Part shown: positions 6,520 to 52,212 of the stretch, one piece after another
How positions within the stretch are numbered: position 1 is the first letter of the stretch
How the letters are laid out: the number at the start of each line of letters is the position of its first letter
From: Rathayibacter agropyri
Lineage (GTDB): Bacteria; Actinomycetota; Actinomycetes; Actinomycetales; Microbacteriaceae
Assembly: GCF_013249015.1 (NCBI RefSeq)
Contig: NZ_JABRPL010000001.1
Span: 1,128,475 to 1,192,474, forward strand
DNA: 64,000 nt
Reading direction: 5' to 3'
Position numbers and translations under genes: made by a program
The notes under the pieces: model-generated
Seen by the model: the letters and a program-made list of their open reading frames with translations, nothing else
Told to the model about the DNA's origin: nothing
The model's database searches: none

Positions 6520-6594
6520 TGGTGCCCCTGGAGGGACTCGAACCCCCAACCTGCTCCTTAGGACGGAGTCGCTCTTCCATTGAGCTACAGAGGC
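6520..6594 (-). tRNA. tRNA-Arg (anticodon CCT)
   Basis: The minus-strand sequence folds into a cloverleaf. The acceptor stem is GCCTCTG/CAGGGGC with one G-T pair. The D-arm is GCTC/GAGC, the anticodon loop is GTCCTAA (anticodon CCT, reading AGG), the T-loop is TTCGAGT, and CCA is encoded at the 3' end (6520-6522). Confidence 0.95.
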
Positions 6595-7761: not shown

Positions 7762-10236
7762 ATGGCCGACTCCCCTGCCCCCTCCCTCCTGCCCGTCCCC
7801 GAGCGCAGCTGGATGTTCCGGCCCGCCGACGTTGAGCTGACCCAGGACACCCTCGACACCATCGACGCCTGGTGGCGCGCCGCCAACTACCTCGCCGTCG
7901 GGCAGATCTACCTTCTCGCGAACCCGCTTCTGAAGACCCCGCTCCGCCGCGAGGACATCAAGCCGCGCCTGCTCGGCCACTGGGGCACGACGCCCGGGCT
8001 GAACCTGATCTACGCACACCTCAATCGCGCGATCCAGGAGCGGCGCCAACCGACGCTGTACATCACCGGCCCTGGCCACGGCGGGCCCGGCATGGTCGCC
8101 AACGCCTATCTCGACGGCACCTACAGCGAGATCTACTCCCACATCGACGAGTCGGAGGAGGGAGTGCGCAGGCTCTTCCGCCAGTTCAGCTTCCCGGGCG
8201 GGATCCCCAGCCACGCCGCCCCCGAGACGCCAGGCAGCATCCACGAGGGCGGCGAACTCGGCTACGCGCTGAGCCACGCTTACGGAGCGGCCTTCGACAA
8301 CCCGGATCTGCTCGTCGCCGCGGTCGTCGGCGATGGCGAGGCCGAGACCGGACCGCTGGCGACCAGCTGGCACTCGAATAAGTTCGTCAATCCACTCACC
8401 GACGGTGTGGTCCTGCCGATCCTGCATCTCAACGGCTGGAAGATCGCCAACCCGACGATTCTCGCCCGCATCCCGCAGGAGGAGCTCGAAAGCCTCCTCC
8501 GGGGCTACGGCCACGAGCCGTTCCTCGTCGAGGGCGGCTTCGACGGCGAGGACCCGATGCGCGTACACGAACGCTTCGCTGACGTCCTCGACACGGTGCT
8601 CGACCGCATCGCCGCGATCAAGCAGCGTGCGGCCGAGGGCGACCTCAGCCGCCCCGCCTGGCCGATGATCGTCCTCAAGACTCCGAAGGGCTGGACGTGC
8701 CCGACCGAGATCGATGGCGTTCAGGTCGAGGGCACCTACCGCGCCCACCAGGTACCGCTGCCCAATGCGCGCGACACCGAGGCGCACACCCGCCTCCTCG
8801 AGGATTGGCTGCGCTCCTATCGTCCCGACGAGCTGTTCACCGAGAACGGCGGCATCACCGAGCGTGTCCGCTCACTTGCTCCCGACGGGGACCTTCGGAT
8901 GAGCGCCACCCCCCACGCGAACGGCGGGCTGCTGCGGCAGACCCTCGACCTGCCCGACTTCCGGCATTACGAGGTGGTCGTCGAGCAGCCCGGCGGCACG
9001 GTCGCCGAGGCGACGAAGGTGTTGGGCGAGTGGCTGGCTGACGTCATTCGTGCCAACCCGACCAACTTCCGCCTCTTCGGACCGGACGAGGTCGCCAGCA
9101 ATCGACTGCAATCCGTCTACGCCGCCACAGACAAGCAGTGGGGTGCTGAACTCAGCCCGCTCGATGACCACCTCGCCCGCGCCGGCCGGGTGATGGAGGT
9201 GCTCTCGGAGCACCAGTGCCAGGGCTGGCTGGAGGGGTACCTCCTCACCGGTCGGCACGGGCTCTTCACCTGCTACGAGGCGTTTATCCACATCATCGAC
9301 TCGATGTTCAACCAGCACGCGAAGTGGCTCGACGGCACTCGCCACATCGAGTGGCGTCGCCCGATCGCGAGCCTGAACTACCTGCTGTCCAGTCACGTGT
9401 GGCGCCAGGATCACAACGGCTTCAGCCACCAGGACCCCGGCTTCATCGACCACGTCGTCAACAAGAAGCCCGAGGTCGTCCGCGTCTACCTGCCCTTCGA
9501 CGCGAACACGTTGCTCTCGACCTACGACCACTGCTTGCGCAGCGTCGACTACGTCAACGTCGTGGTCGCTGGCAAGCAGCCCTCACCCCAGTGGCTCACC
9601 ATGGCGGAGGCGATCACGCACTGCGCACGCGGCCTCGGCATCCTGGAGTGGGCGAGCAGCGAGCGGCAGGGAGAGTCGCCGGACGTCGTGCTCGCCTGCG
9701 CGGGCGACGTGCCGACCCTCGAAACCCTCGCAGCCGTGAGCATCCTGCGCGAGAAGCTGCCCGACCTCGCCGTCCGCACCGTGAACGTCGTCGATCTGAT
9801 GCGTCTGATGTCGGAGTCGGAGCACCCACACGGTCTCTCCGACCGGGAGTTCGACGCGATCTTTACCCCCGATTGCCCCGTCGTCTTCGCTTACCACGGG
9901 TACCCGTGGCTCATCCACCGCCTGACCTATAAGCGCACCGGCCACAACAACCTGCACGTCCACGGCTACAGGGAGAACGGGACGACAACCACTCCGTTCG
10001 ACATGGTGATGCTGAACAACCTCGATCGCTATTCGCTGGTGATCGATGTGATCGACCGCACTCCCGGCCTCGGCGCCCGAGCGGCGAGCCTGCGCCAGGA
10101 CATGCAGGATGCCCGTATCCGCGCCCGCGCCTACACCCGCGAACACGGCGAGGACCTCCCCGAGGTCGCGAACTGGACGTGGGCCGCCGACCGCCCCGGA
10201 AACGCCAGCACAAACCCGGGCACTGACAACGAATAA
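7762..10236 (+). CDS. xfp: xylulose-5-phosphate/fructose-6-phosphate phosphoketolase
   Basis: This 824-residue protein cleaves xylulose-5-P (and usually fructose-6-P) with phosphate to acetyl-phosphate plus glyceraldehyde-3-P (or erythrose-4-P) and needs thiamine diphosphate. Family motifs are present throughout: [20 protein letters not shown] near residue 95, [22 protein letters not shown], the ThDP motif [13 protein letters not shown], and C-terminal [12 protein letters not shown]-type sequence read here as [13 protein letters not shown]. Length matches the family. The start lies just past the broken ABC genes, with only a weak ribosome binding site. Transcription ends at the long hairpin just downstream. 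Confidence 0.97.
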
Positions 10237-10252
10237 CCCCCTACCCCGACGA

Positions 10253-10344
10253 CCTGACGGGCCGCGGTCGCGCCGCTGGTAAGGCGGAGGAGGAAGCGAT
10301 ACCAGCGGACAACGCCGCCAGCGGTGCGACCGCGGCCCGTCAGG
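10253..10344. repeat. long hairpin with shared core, copy A (probable bidirectional terminator)
   Basis: Arms 10253-10279 and 10318-10344 are 27 bases each and complementary with a single G-T mismatch. The loop (10280-10317) contains AAGGCGGAGGAGG, GCGATACC and ACAACGCCG. The same core elements occur in the loop of a second hairpin at 32089-32190 whose arms are unrelated. The element lies between the convergent xfp and HNH genes; the right arm contains the HNH stop codon. Confidence 0.85.
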
Positions 10345-10837
10345 CGGCGGGAGCCAAGTAGTCGTCCCAGTCGGGCTGTGTGCGTTCCGCGCCGCGGACC
10401 AGCCAGGAGCCCGCGCGCGGCATCCGAGGGGCGGTGCGCAGGCGCCAGCCCATCTCGTGCGGCGTGCGGTCGCTCTTGAGGTTGTTGCAGCGCTGGCAGC
10501 ACGCGACAAGGTTTTCCCAGGTGTCCCGCCCGCCGCGCGACTTTGGCTGGATGTGGTCGATCGTTGCCGCGTGCTGTCCGCAGTAACCGCAGCGGTGGTT
10601 ATCTCGGCGCAGCACACCGCGGCGCGAGACCGGCACCTTGCGGCCGTTCGGGATGCGCACGTAGCGCGTCAGCACGATCACCGAGGGCCGGACGTAGTCG
10701 CCGGTCGCACCGTGCACGGGATTGTCCTCATCGGCGGCGATGACGGTCGCCTTCTCGGTCATCAACAGGACCAAAGCCCGTTTGAACGACACGACCGCGA
10801 GCGGTTCATAGCCGGCGTTGAGAACCAGAGTGCGCAT
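10340..10837 (-). CDS. HNH endonuclease
   Basis: A 165-residue protein with an N-terminal region conserved in actinobacterial HNH proteins (MRTLVLNAGYEPL). The C-terminal zinc-HNH module is C-G-Y-C ... ATIDHIQPKSRGG ... WENLVACCQRCNNLKSDR, where the CxxC pairs bind zinc and the DH/N/N residues form the catalytic site. These stand-alone proteins are common core genes in Micrococcales; their cellular target is unknown. The stop codon falls inside the 3' arm of the neighbouring hairpin. The ATG overlaps the stop of a possible upstream small frame (ATGA). Confidence 0.9.
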   Translation of the reverse strand: MRTLVLNAGYEPLAVVSFKRALVLLMTEKATVIAADEDNPVHGATGDYVRPSVIVLTRYVRIPNGRKVPVSRRGVLRRDNHRCGYCGQHAATIDHIQPKSRGGRDTWENLVACCQRCNNLKSDRTPHEMGWRLRTAPRMPRAGSWLVRGAERTQPDWDDYLAPAA

Positions 10838-23215: not shown

Positions 23216-23288
23216 GCCGACGTGGCGCAATTGGTAGCGCACCCGACTTGTAATCGGGCGGTTACGAGTTCAAGTCTCGTCGTCGGCT
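23216..23288 (+). tRNA. tRNA-Thr (anticodon TGT)
   Basis: Cloverleaf with acceptor GCCGACG/CGTCGGC, D-arm GCGC/GCGC, anticodon stem CCCGA/TCGGG around loop CTTGTAA (anticodon TGT, reading ACA), and T-loop TTCAAGT. CCA is not encoded. Confidence 0.95.
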
Positions 23289-24314: not shown

Positions 24315-24558
24315 GACAAGGACGCTCCGAATGAGAGTGGGGAAAAAGGGGAAGGGGCTGCCGCCGGGGCGCGACTCGCCGGAATCTTACGCGCGAGCCC
24401 TGGGAAACCTCCAAACGGTGCTGACCCTGCGATCGCCGGTCCCTCCGAGACCCGTGGCATACTGAGAGAACTGGCCGCTGTCGCCCAGGCGATGATGACC
24501 ATCACTTCCATTCACTCGGATCGTCCGGCACGTACCTGCCGGTGAAGGAGCAAGAACA

Positions 24559-31300: not shown

Positions 31301-31460
31301 GCGACGTCCTTTCAGCGGCGGATAGATTACCATGCGCGCCGAGCAGGAGGAGAGGCGGGCGGGCGGGGCCGCAACTCTCACTACGCTAGCCTGGTGTCGG
31401 CTCGTGCACAGTGAATCCGCCCTGGCCGGGGCGAGCAGGGCCGACGATCTGGAGGATCCT

Positions 31461-32027
31461 GTGAAGGCGCGTATCGCTGCATCCGTCGTTCTCGCGGTCG
31501 GCGTCGCCCTCGCTACCGCCGGCTGCAACCTGGTCGCTCCGCAGGCGACCCGCAAGATCTATGACGCCAGCGACGGTGTCGGCGCGACCATCGGCGATCT
31601 CGCCATCCGTAATGCGATGATCATCTCGGACGACGGTGAGCAGGGCACCCTCGTCGTCACGCTCGTGAACTCCACCGACGAGTCGCTGAGCGTCGAGGTT
31701 CAGTATGAGGGCAGCGCGGGCCGCACCAGCGATATCGTCGACGCCGTTCCCGGCCGCACAGAGGTCCGCCCCGACAGCACCGAGGCTGTCGAGATGGAGG
31801 GCATCGACTCGATCCCGGGCAGCCTCCTCCCCGTCTATTTCCAGTACGGCTCCGAGGAGGGCAAGGAACTCCTGGTCCCCGTCCTGACGAACGCCCTCGA
31901 GGCCTACTCGACGCTGACCCCCGCACCCTCCGCGACTCCCACCCTCACCCCCAAGACCAACCCCGCACAGACCGCGCTCCCCTCCCCCACAACCGACCCC
32001 GGCGTCGACGCCCCCACCGCGCAGTAG
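31461..32027 (+). CDS. predicted lipoprotein of unknown function
   Basis: GTG 31461 follows GGAGG at 31451-31455. The first 22 residues are a signal peptide ending ATAGC (lipobox). The extracytoplasmic part, about 120 residues, looks like an immunoglobulin/copper-chaperone-type beta sandwich ([26 protein letters not shown]). A Pro/Thr-rich tail of about 40 residues follows. It is divergent from carD. I do not recognise a characterised family; this type is common in Microbacteriaceae. Confidence 0.78.
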
Positions 32028-32088: not shown

Positions 32089-32190
32089 TCGCGGGCCCTG
32101 GTGGGGTGAGCTGCAAGGCGGAGGAGGGCGCGATACCGGAGGTATCGCAACCGACGACAACGCCGCAGATCACCCCACCAGGGCCCGCGA
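32089..32190. repeat. long hairpin with shared core, copy B (probable bidirectional terminator)
   Basis: Arms 32089-32113 and 32166-32190 are 25 bases each, complementary with one mismatch, and unrelated to the arms of copy A. The 52-base loop has AAGGCGGAGGAGG, an internal hairpin GCGATACC-GGA-GGTATCGC and ACAACGCCG. Copy A shares these elements except the 3' half of the internal hairpin. The hairpin sits between the convergent lipoprotein and regX3 genes. Confidence 0.85.
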
Positions 32191-32868
32191 TCAGGCGTCG
32201 AAGCGGTAGCCGAGGCCGCGGACAGTAACCAAGAGCACCGGTTCCTTCGGCGTCTTTTCGATCTTGGAGCGGATCCGCTTCACGTGGACGTCGAGGGTCT
32301 TGGTGTCGCCGAAGTAGTCGCTGCCCCAGACGCGGTCGATGAGCTGGCCGCGGGTGAGGACGCGGCCGGCGTTGCGCAGCAGCATCTCGAGGAGTTCGAA
32401 TTCCTTGAGGGGCATGGCAGTCTCAACGCCGTCGACTTCGACGGTGTGGCGTTCGATGTCCATGCGGACGGGTCCGGCGACGACGATGCGCTCCTCCCCC
32501 GGGTCCTCGGTGCGGCGGCGCAGGACGGCGCGGATGCGGGCGAGCAGCTCGCGGGTCGAGTAGGGCTTGGTGACGTAGTCGTCGGCGCCGAGTTCGAGGC
32601 CGACGACGATGTCGACCTCGGAGTCCTTCGCGGTGACCATGATGATCGGCACGGAGGAGCGGGTGCGGATCTCGCGGCAGACCTCGGTGCCGGGCATGCC
32701 CGGCAGCATGAGGTCGAGCAGGATCAGGTCGTACTCGCCGTCGTCGAACGCGGTGACGGCGCGGTTGCCGTCCTCGGCGACGGTGACGTCGTAGCCCTCG
32801 CGTTCAAGTAGGTAGCTGAGGGGCTCGCTGAGGGCGCTCTCGTCCTCAACGAGCAGGATGCTGGTCAC
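32191..32868 (-). CDS. regX3: phosphate-responsive response regulator RegX3 (PhoP/PhoB type)
   Basis: A 225-residue OmpR-type regulator. The receiver has VEDE, phospho-acceptor Asp in LILLDLMLPGM, MVTAKDS and the TKPYS lysine. The winged-helix domain has PLKEFELLEMLLRNAG and TLDVHVKRIRSKIE. It overlaps the senX3 stop by 4 bases (ATGA). Phosphorylated RegX3 activates pst, phoU-region and alkaline phosphatase genes under phosphate limitation. Candidate binding sites occur upstream of phoU, ppk and pstS in this window. Confidence 0.95.
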   Translation of the reverse strand: MTSILLVEDESALSEPLSYLLEREGYDVTVAEDGNRAVTAFDDGEYDLILLDLMLPGMPGTEVCREIRTRSSVPIIMVTAKDSEVDIVVGLELGADDYVTKPYSTRELLARIRAVLRRRTEDPGEERIVVAGPVRMDIERHTVEVDGVETAMPLKEFELLEMLLRNAGRVLTRGQLIDRVWGSDYFGDTKTLDVHVKRIRSKIEKTPKEPVLLVTVRGLGYRFDA

Positions 32869-52136: not shown

Positions 52137-52212
52137 GGGCCTCTAGCTCAGTTGGCAGAGCAGCGGACTTTTAATCCGCGGGTCGTCGGTTCGAGCCCGA
52201 CGGGGCCCACCA
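52137..52212 (+). tRNA. tRNA-Lys (anticodon TTT)
   Basis: Cloverleaf with acceptor GGGCCTC/GGGGCCC (one G-T), D-arm GCTC/GAGC, anticodon loop CTTTTAA (anticodon TTT), T-loop TTCGAGC, and encoded CCA at 52210-52212. The first gene of the inserted element starts 84 bases downstream on the same strand with no terminator between. Confidence 0.96.

Follow-up and report, generated by a model that had tools for sequence, protein, structure and literature searches.

The window, by which the whole 64,000-nucleotide stretch of Rathayibacter agropyri DNA analysed here is meant, carries two long hairpins (copies A and B) that have a core in common and arms of different sequence. They raise the question of what kind of element would keep its core while its stems change. 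In the sequence-only reading of this DNA, three explanations were offered: the insertion of a small element into terminator loops, a structured RNA whose arms covary, or a DNA cruciform bound by protein.

Two hairpins at convergent gene ends

That reading described two hairpins with a shared core, arms of 25-27 bp and one mismatch each, both lying between convergent genes, and this description was confirmed. The arms are 27 nt long in copy A and 26 nt in copy B, and are 96% complementary with a single mismatch in both; the right arm of each copy extends to the stop codon of a minus-strand gene. Copy A consists of a left arm (10253-10279, plus strand) and a right arm (10318-10344, plus strand) that form an inverted repeat with a spacing of 38 nt, and a core, AAGGCGGAGGAGGAAGCGATACC followed by AGCGG and ACAACGCCG (10281-10317, plus strand). 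The right arm includes the complement of the stop codon (10340-10342) of an HNH endonuclease gene (10340-10837, minus strand; Pfam HNH, 3.3e-14), and the convergent neighbour is a phosphoketolase (XFP) gene (7762-10236, plus strand; Pfam XFP_N, XFP, and XFP_C).

In copy B, the arms are 50 nt apart. All of its parts were placed on the plus strand. Its left arm (P1, 32089-32114) is followed by the 5′ core strand AAGGCGGAGGAGGGC (32115-32129, assigned from the sequence and the alignment), the inner stem P3, GCGATACC-GGA-GGTATCGC (32130-32148), whose pairs covary in the alignment described below, and the 3′ core strand AACCGACGACAACGCCG (32149-32165), the final base of which also belongs to the right arm (32165-32190). 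The right arm of the inverted repeat ends immediately before the complement of the stop codon (32191-32193) of a response regulator gene (32191-32868, minus strand; Pfam Response_reg, 1.6e-30, and Trans_reg_C, 2.8e-28). The convergent ORF to the left (31332-32027, plus strand) is lipoprotein-like by eye, with its actual start probably near 31461; no Pfam family matched positions 31464-32024.

The string AAGGCGGAGGAGGNNGCGATACC, sought with up to three mismatches, occurs twice in the window, both times exactly, and never in 100 shuffles. The notion of a shared loop stood in part: a core is common to both copies, and the “loop” of copy B proved to be itself structured, through the inner stem formed by GCGATACC and GGTATCGC, while the core of copy A is 14 nt short and lacks the 3′ half of the inner stem and the CCGACG motif. 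In the closest relative, genome G004, the orthologous copy (L339) has the full core with a few changes, so that copy A reads as a damaged copy in decay; its example indicates that copies can lose the core.

No Rfam 15 family was found over either window hairpin at the gathering score. The Rfam matches elsewhere in the window were three tRNAs, at 6523-6594 (minus strand), 23216-23288 and 52137-52209 (both plus strand), and the msiK RNA (24499-24556, plus strand, 57.3 bits), a cis-regulatory RNA unrelated to the hairpins. Permissive Rfam scans of two further copies (L183 and L180) returned only implausible matches, up to E=5.

A constant tip on covarying stems

When copies were compared by eye, the 5′ side of the tip was found to have GC-AAG-GCG-GAG as its constant part, and the 3′ side GACAA-CGC-N-GC, with no constraint on the base opposite G29. 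Judged from these sequences, the conserved tip can be written as GC-AAG-GCG-GA-G-[variable stem]-(bulge)GA-C-AA-CGC-N-GC, and it appears to be the sole strongly conserved part of the element.

Covariation was measured in an alignment (A2) of 46 of 56 copies, of which 43 were from Rathayibacter, copy B included, and three from Gordonia, trimmed to equal length. Copy A was left out, as were a match within coding sequence (L038:4182) and eight tandem copies whose arms are broken, and a Spirochaete match (L036) had been removed earlier. In this alignment, 94.6% of cells were paired, a percentage inflated by the selection of copies, and two-sided change was seen in 29 of the 40 pairs. The covariation score was 0.485, compared to 0.138 for shuffled alignments and at most 0.107 for slid controls. 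Two stacked mismatch positions covary as well, G.A with A.C (20 AA/GC, 13 GA/GA, 10 GC/AA, and 3 others; n=46). In a wider set, drawn mainly from other actinomycetes, 92 distinct inner segments had a mean identity of 57% among pairs of equal length, and a stem of at least 6 bp was present in 87% of them, compared to 25% of shuffled segments. Even between copies of one genome (G438), the stem sequence varies with compensation. Both the arms and the inner stem are maintained by compensatory change.

The tip loops of Rathayibacter copies contain a C-stem (CC/GG), a 3-nt bulge (GAC), and tandem G.A pairs, followed by a second stem, a sequence pattern that reads like that of the K-turn. Some relatives (L105, L107, L108, and L110) have no such bulge by eye, and the K-turn was therefore rejected as the defining feature.

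Distribution of the element

An exact scan for the core, run on one genome of each species, gave 42 stretches, of which 38 were in eight named Rathayibacter genomes, three in Gordonia asplenii, and one in a Spirochaete metagenome-assembled genome (L036), in which arms were not visible by eye. At E<=0.001, a covariance model (R1) gave 4-28 matches in each of the 15 Rathayibacter genomes, a count that includes reverse-strand self-matches; the element occupies several to about twenty places per Rathayibacter genome. At E<=1e-9 and with strict filters, R1 matched in 24 of 398 Microbacteriaceae genomes (10 Rathayibacter and 14 others). A gapped core pattern, which fixes 20 core bases and is uninformative on the conservation of these bases, matched in 64 of 394 Actinomycetes genomes, with up to 28 copies each, compared to two genomes with one match each for the reversed control. 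In a phylum sample, seven of 296 genomes matched the gapped pattern, all seven already in the class sample, and none of the 270 newly drawn genomes did. In a phenazine cluster, a copy was found about 50 nt away from the stop codon of phzG.

Mobile and viral records were also searched. Copy B has matches in ten Streptomyces plasmid records; in two of these, the match spans 98% of the query, arms included, at 77% identity. The arms do differ between copies A and B, as had been claimed, but an unrelated origin of the arms is not required, since copy B matches these plasmids along its arms as well. Phage records gave no match to copy B. Among viral contigs, three patterns led to 13 different contigs, and three of these (L173, L177, and L180) carry palindromic arms; the other ten have no arms by eye and resemble chance or coding matches. 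The three contigs have the same core in palindromes whose base composition tracks that of the contig: two are AT-rich (GC 0.40 and 0.325), and the third (GC 0.62) carries FtsH-like and phosphoribosyltransferase-like ORFs, named by eye. The three presumably belong to Bacillota, and it is on them that the claim of a spread across phyla rests.

The sequence-only reading held that its shared-core idea would fail if only two copies existed or if other copies carried the core without complementary arms. Many more copies were found, and core matches without complementary arms resemble chance or coding matches by eye, the exception being eight of the 56 copies, which lie in tandem arrays and have incomplete arms. 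Taken together, the sequences indicate that copies A and B belong to one widespread bacterial repeat, which looks partly mobile. Among the matches listed in searches of the open-access literature for Rathayibacter repeats, Streptomyces palindromes, actinobacterial MITEs, and structured RNAs, no description of the element was seen, and the literal core strings AAGGCGGAGGA and GACGACAACGC led only to unrelated papers among the matches listed.

Tandem copies lie about 80-110 nt apart at eleven loci (L009, L010, L011, L016, L020, L021, L023, L037, L042, L326, and L350), and one arm of one copy is often missing, which suggests frequent slippage at the repeat. In the single genome of Gordonia asplenii (L006, L028, and L035), two palindrome sub-families with different ends, CTAGTGTCYCGTGTCGG and CTAGGGTGTGTCTCCCAATTC, were observed; the sub-family with CTAGTGTCYCGTGTCGG ends is 95-98% identical among three loci over 168-169 bp.

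Conservation at orthologous loci

In 14 Rathayibacter ortholog groups, tandem copies included, 28.3% of sites differed in the outer arms and 23.1% in the inner arms, compared to 5.0% in the inner stem and 3.1% in the core loops. The set was started from core-like sequences with up to four changes, which lowers the core divergence, and homogenisation between copies could mimic part of the core conservation. The response-regulator locus was instead found by its protein and is free of this selection bias: a hairpin with the core stands at the stop codon in 13 of the 15 Rathayibacter genomes, and the two most divergent genomes (G011 and G014) have other sequence there, with no core-bearing hairpin.

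At the HNH locus, a core-bearing hairpin was found at the stop codon in three of 14 readable genomes, the 15th (L346) being cut off; in L348 and L353, the core lies further off, in the opposite orientation. A different hairpin, GCGAGATGCCACTT..AAGTGGCATCTCGC, is present at or near the stop codon in L341, L342, L343, L347, L348, L351, and L353, where the core element is absent. Its arms, unlike those of the core element, are conserved, and GCGAGATGCCACTT has 11 occurrences in eight of 354 loci, none of them in the window. The pair L344 and L345 (genomes G001/G009) was also compared at this locus: L344 has a full element with outer arm ends TGACGCG/CGCGTCA, and L345 has in its place a short palindrome, TGACGCG-G-CGCGTCA, which may be a copy that has collapsed or else an old empty site. 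The flanks of the two are too different for a clean empty-site pair, and none was seen.

Placement and orientation at gene ends

Genes around the copies were called with home-made codon-bias scripts. Seven of 107 copies fell inside called genes and were excluded as chance matches; for the remaining 100, the right gene was antisense in 92, and the left gene was on the plus strand in 52 and on the minus strand in 34. The short forms, 70 of 87 of which are from Microbacteriaceae, abut stop codons in 58 of 87 cases: on the right only in 50, on the left only in three, on both sides in five, and on neither in 29. Thus, 50 short forms run only against the abutting gene and three only along it. The corresponding counts for 117 long forms are 20, 15, 11, and 71. 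A bias in orientation that is seen in the short forms only suggests that copies with RNA antisense to the gene are those that hosts retain. In 33 of the 55 right-abutting short forms, the arm end lies within 2 nt of the stop codon. The stop codons abutted by short forms (TGA 40, TAG 20, and TAA 3) resemble in their use the Rathayibacter background (192, 63, and 21, respectively).

In respect of intrinsic terminators, a GC-rich hairpin is present at the gene end, and a U-tract after the hairpin is not: no T-rich tract was found in the 12 nt following the hairpin in the sense of the gene (T 11-19%, 54 copies). Loci without the core were read for 28 other Microbacteriaceae and for the two of 15 Rathayibacter genomes at the response-regulator locus. 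They contain other sequence or unrelated hairpins, never the same arms around a plain loop, and ordinary long terminator-like hairpins stand at the same place in at least eight of the 28 relatives and in L337.

In five complete Rathayibacter genomes, the strand of the element agrees with the replichore at 43 of 46 loci (G009, 14/14; G008, 6/6; G010, 9/9; G003, 8/9; and G005, 6/8), so that the gene it abuts mostly lies on the leading strand. In seven other genomes, the rule held at 17 of 25 loci, with one more at a boundary. These figures are a hand tally from dnaA positions, with tandem copies merged and the terminus assumed to lie opposite dnaA, and the bias may reflect leading-strand genes alone.

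The strand that folds

When the arms are read on the strand that carries AAGGCGG (the plus strand), G.T pairs outnumber A.C by 211 to 36 in 84 short forms (about six to one), and by 671 to 228 in 118 longer forms. Folding predictions favour the RNA of this strand over its complement in all 46 aligned copies (mean difference 11 kcal/mol) and in 89 of 91 copies of a wider set of long forms and some short ones (mean difference 21 kcal/mol); this comparison rests largely on the same G.T pairs and is not independent of their count. Folding is preserved on the AAGGCGG strand. An excess of G.T on one strand points to selection on the RNA, or single-stranded DNA, of that strand rather than on a cruciform or a double-stranded site. 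The protein-bound DNA cruciform is accordingly disfavoured, since it would constrain both strands alike. The explanation by a structured RNA is supported by two-sided change in most pairs, near-invariant loops, and a strong strand preference in folding. We infer that the functional molecule is the RNA of the AAGGCGG strand.

In the 35 usable copies, the bias was alike with a convergent neighbour (50 G.T versus 8 A.C, 20 copies) and without one (43 versus 5, 15 copies). The possibility that the element acts only as part of the transcript of the left gene was therefore rejected. An equal plus-strand bias where no convergent gene is present implies that the RNA would have to arise by antisense transcription rather than from the mRNA of a neighbour, or else that single-stranded DNA is involved.

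Long forms and a possible transposon link

Outside Microbacteriaceae, the tip is often found at the apex of a palindrome some 165 nt long. In 117 long forms, for which palindrome ends were located roughly, the CTAG-like motif YTAR was found near both ends in 28, near one end in 22, and near none in 67; in 87 short forms, it was found at both ends in none and at one end in seven. TAG accounts for 42 of the 57 stop codons that long forms abut, an excess that is expected if CTAG is the target, and that was measured against the Rathayibacter background rather than that of the genomes concerned.

In genome G530, CTAGGGCATGTCTGAT and CTAGGGCGTGTCTGAC flank an element of about 945 bp with DUF4096 and DDE_Tnp_1 ORFs. 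The tip-bearing palindromes of the same genome have ends such as CTAGGCC[GA]TGTCTCC, which resemble the ends of that element at 13 of 16 bases by eye, in this one genome. The end pattern was more frequent than its reversed control in G438 (14 versus 3) and G629 (50 versus 12), but not in G530 (9 versus 23) or G002 (24 versus 34), and no IS5-type motif was found beside any core in 339 loci. These observations suggest that the ~165-nt palindromes, which look like miniature transposons, may have been moved by IS5-type transposases, the resemblance of ends being that of a single genome. An IS5-type element of about 945 bp was observed at L268 (576-1520); it has two ORFs in different frames, the second of which terminates with SDMP and a stop codon within the terminal GACATGCCCTAG.

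Comparison with known systems

Miniature transposons (MITEs) of the IS5 family (IS4/5, DUF4096) are, like the element, short, non-coding, palindromic, and multi-copy, and the G530 palindromes have CTAG-flanked inverted repeats that resemble a DUF4096/DDE_Tnp_1 element. Unlike such MITEs, the stem of the element changes freely with compensation and the tip alone is conserved, and the short gene-end forms, the window copies included, have no transposon ends and a background use of stop codons. Repetitive extragenic palindromes (REP/BIME) also lie between genes near stop codons, with many copies in a genome, either single or in tandem. In REPs it is the palindrome that is conserved, whereas that of the element varies, most of all in the outer arms, and its tip loops are conserved.

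Of the published kinds found, MRSC-65-2 comes nearest; it is a mobile motif with a long stem that has in common with the element a single long covarying stem, multiple copies, and a presence in diverse phyla, and that is thought to be a selfish element (PMC11109978). Its stated conserved repeat is UYCCGG, which is not part of the tip of the element, and the two are probably distinct. The I-shaped, or U-lacking, terminators of high-GC bacteria are likewise stable GC hairpins at transcript ends that have no U-tract; no conserved structured loop, by which the element is defined, is described for them in the part of the report available (PMC8269248).

Possible functions of the element

We read the element as working like a mobile palindrome turned 3′-boundary hairpin. 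More specifically, we give an even chance to the explanation that it is a mobile palindrome which carries a conserved RNA tip and has become fixed at gene ends, where the RNA of the tip stops or marks the plus-strand transcript. RNA polymerase would come from downstream, from a convergent gene or by antisense transcription, and would copy the plus strand; a very stable hairpin with its tip would then form just before the 3′ end of the gene and would stop or mark the transcript, possibly assisted by a factor that recognises the tip. That the tip works as RNA is probable. Several findings fit this mechanism poorly. The missing T-rich tract leaves it without the signature of a classical terminator, and the equal folding of the plus strand where no convergent gene is present means that the mRNA of the neighbour is not a simple answer. 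A hairpin so close to the stop codon of a gene could also act in the mRNA of that gene, the link to transposons is thin (YTAR at both ends in 28 of 117 long forms, and no excess of the end pattern in G530 and G002), and the core is partly lost in copy A and, at the HNH locus, stands in a hairpin at the stop codon in only three of 14 genomes. A bolder proposal, which we hold tentatively and somewhat short of an even chance, is that the tip represents an undescribed class of functional RNA. It might be an aptamer that binds a near-universal factor such as RNA polymerase or the ribosome, or it might be a small catalytic RNA; mobile palindromes would carry it in more than one bacterial phylum, and it would have been fixed again and again, in a single orientation, at host gene ends.

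The strongest of the competing explanations, unlikely but to be taken seriously, holds that ordinary palindromic repeats, namely miniature transposons, became bidirectional terminators, and that the tip has no function and is alike among copies through recent spread and gene conversion. The position at gene ends and the tandem copies would follow, ordinary long hairpins occupy the same place in at least eight of 28 relatives and in L337, and structured transcript ends without U-tracts are reported in the available part of a study of Streptomyces clavuligerus (PMC8269248). However, the loops of the tip are kept across genera and GC contents while the inner stems change and yet pair, gene conversion would tend to homogenise the inner stem along with the loops, and a bidirectional terminator does not account for folding that is preserved on one strand.

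Strand-specific folding, in the wider set as well, would also fit a hairpin of single-stranded DNA that a transposase or recombinase (IS200/REP- or attC-like) recognises, with the tip as the recognition site and the gene-end copies as target sites. The multiple copies, the patchy presence among close relatives at the HNH locus, and the replichore rule that fits 43 of 46 loci in five Rathayibacter genomes agree with such a hairpin. This explanation is nonetheless doubtful: some long forms have inverted-repeat ends with CTAG, as DDE transposons do, and the replichore rule, which weakens to 17 of 25 loci in seven other genomes, may only reflect leading-strand genes.

It is improbable that the hairpin acts in the gene's own mRNA in the manner of REPs, by stalling ribosomes and trimming translation or by stabilising the 3′ end. 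The proximity of the arm to the stop codon in 33 of the 55 short forms that abut on the right, in one orientation, invites this explanation, and REPs located less than 16 nt from a stop codon lower translation and cause ribosomes to stall (cited in PMC12306157). In the sense of the mRNA, however, the G.T pairs become A.C mismatches and the strand folds worse in all 46 aligned copies, by a mean of 11 kcal/mol, and a conserved tip is not required by the model.

Least probable is the insertion of a small core into the loops of pre-existing terminators, one of the original proposals: it would explain a core common to hairpins of very different stem sequence, but the arms elsewhere belong to a ~165-nt palindrome that is continuous as one unit to its ends, loci without the core never show the same arms with a short loop, and the arms of copy B are like those of the Streptomyces plasmid copies.

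Miniature repeats are usually defined by the ends that a transposase recognises. Here, the stems drift freely and it is the tip that seems to be held by selection, apparently through the structure that one strand forms, both in high-GC actinomycetes and in two AT-rich contigs. Should a conserved cellular factor bind the tip, mobile palindromes would spread a ready-made RNA control module that hosts retain at gene ends. The element provides a way to test how high-GC bacteria deal with antisense transcription and how they mark the ends of transcripts that have no U-tract.
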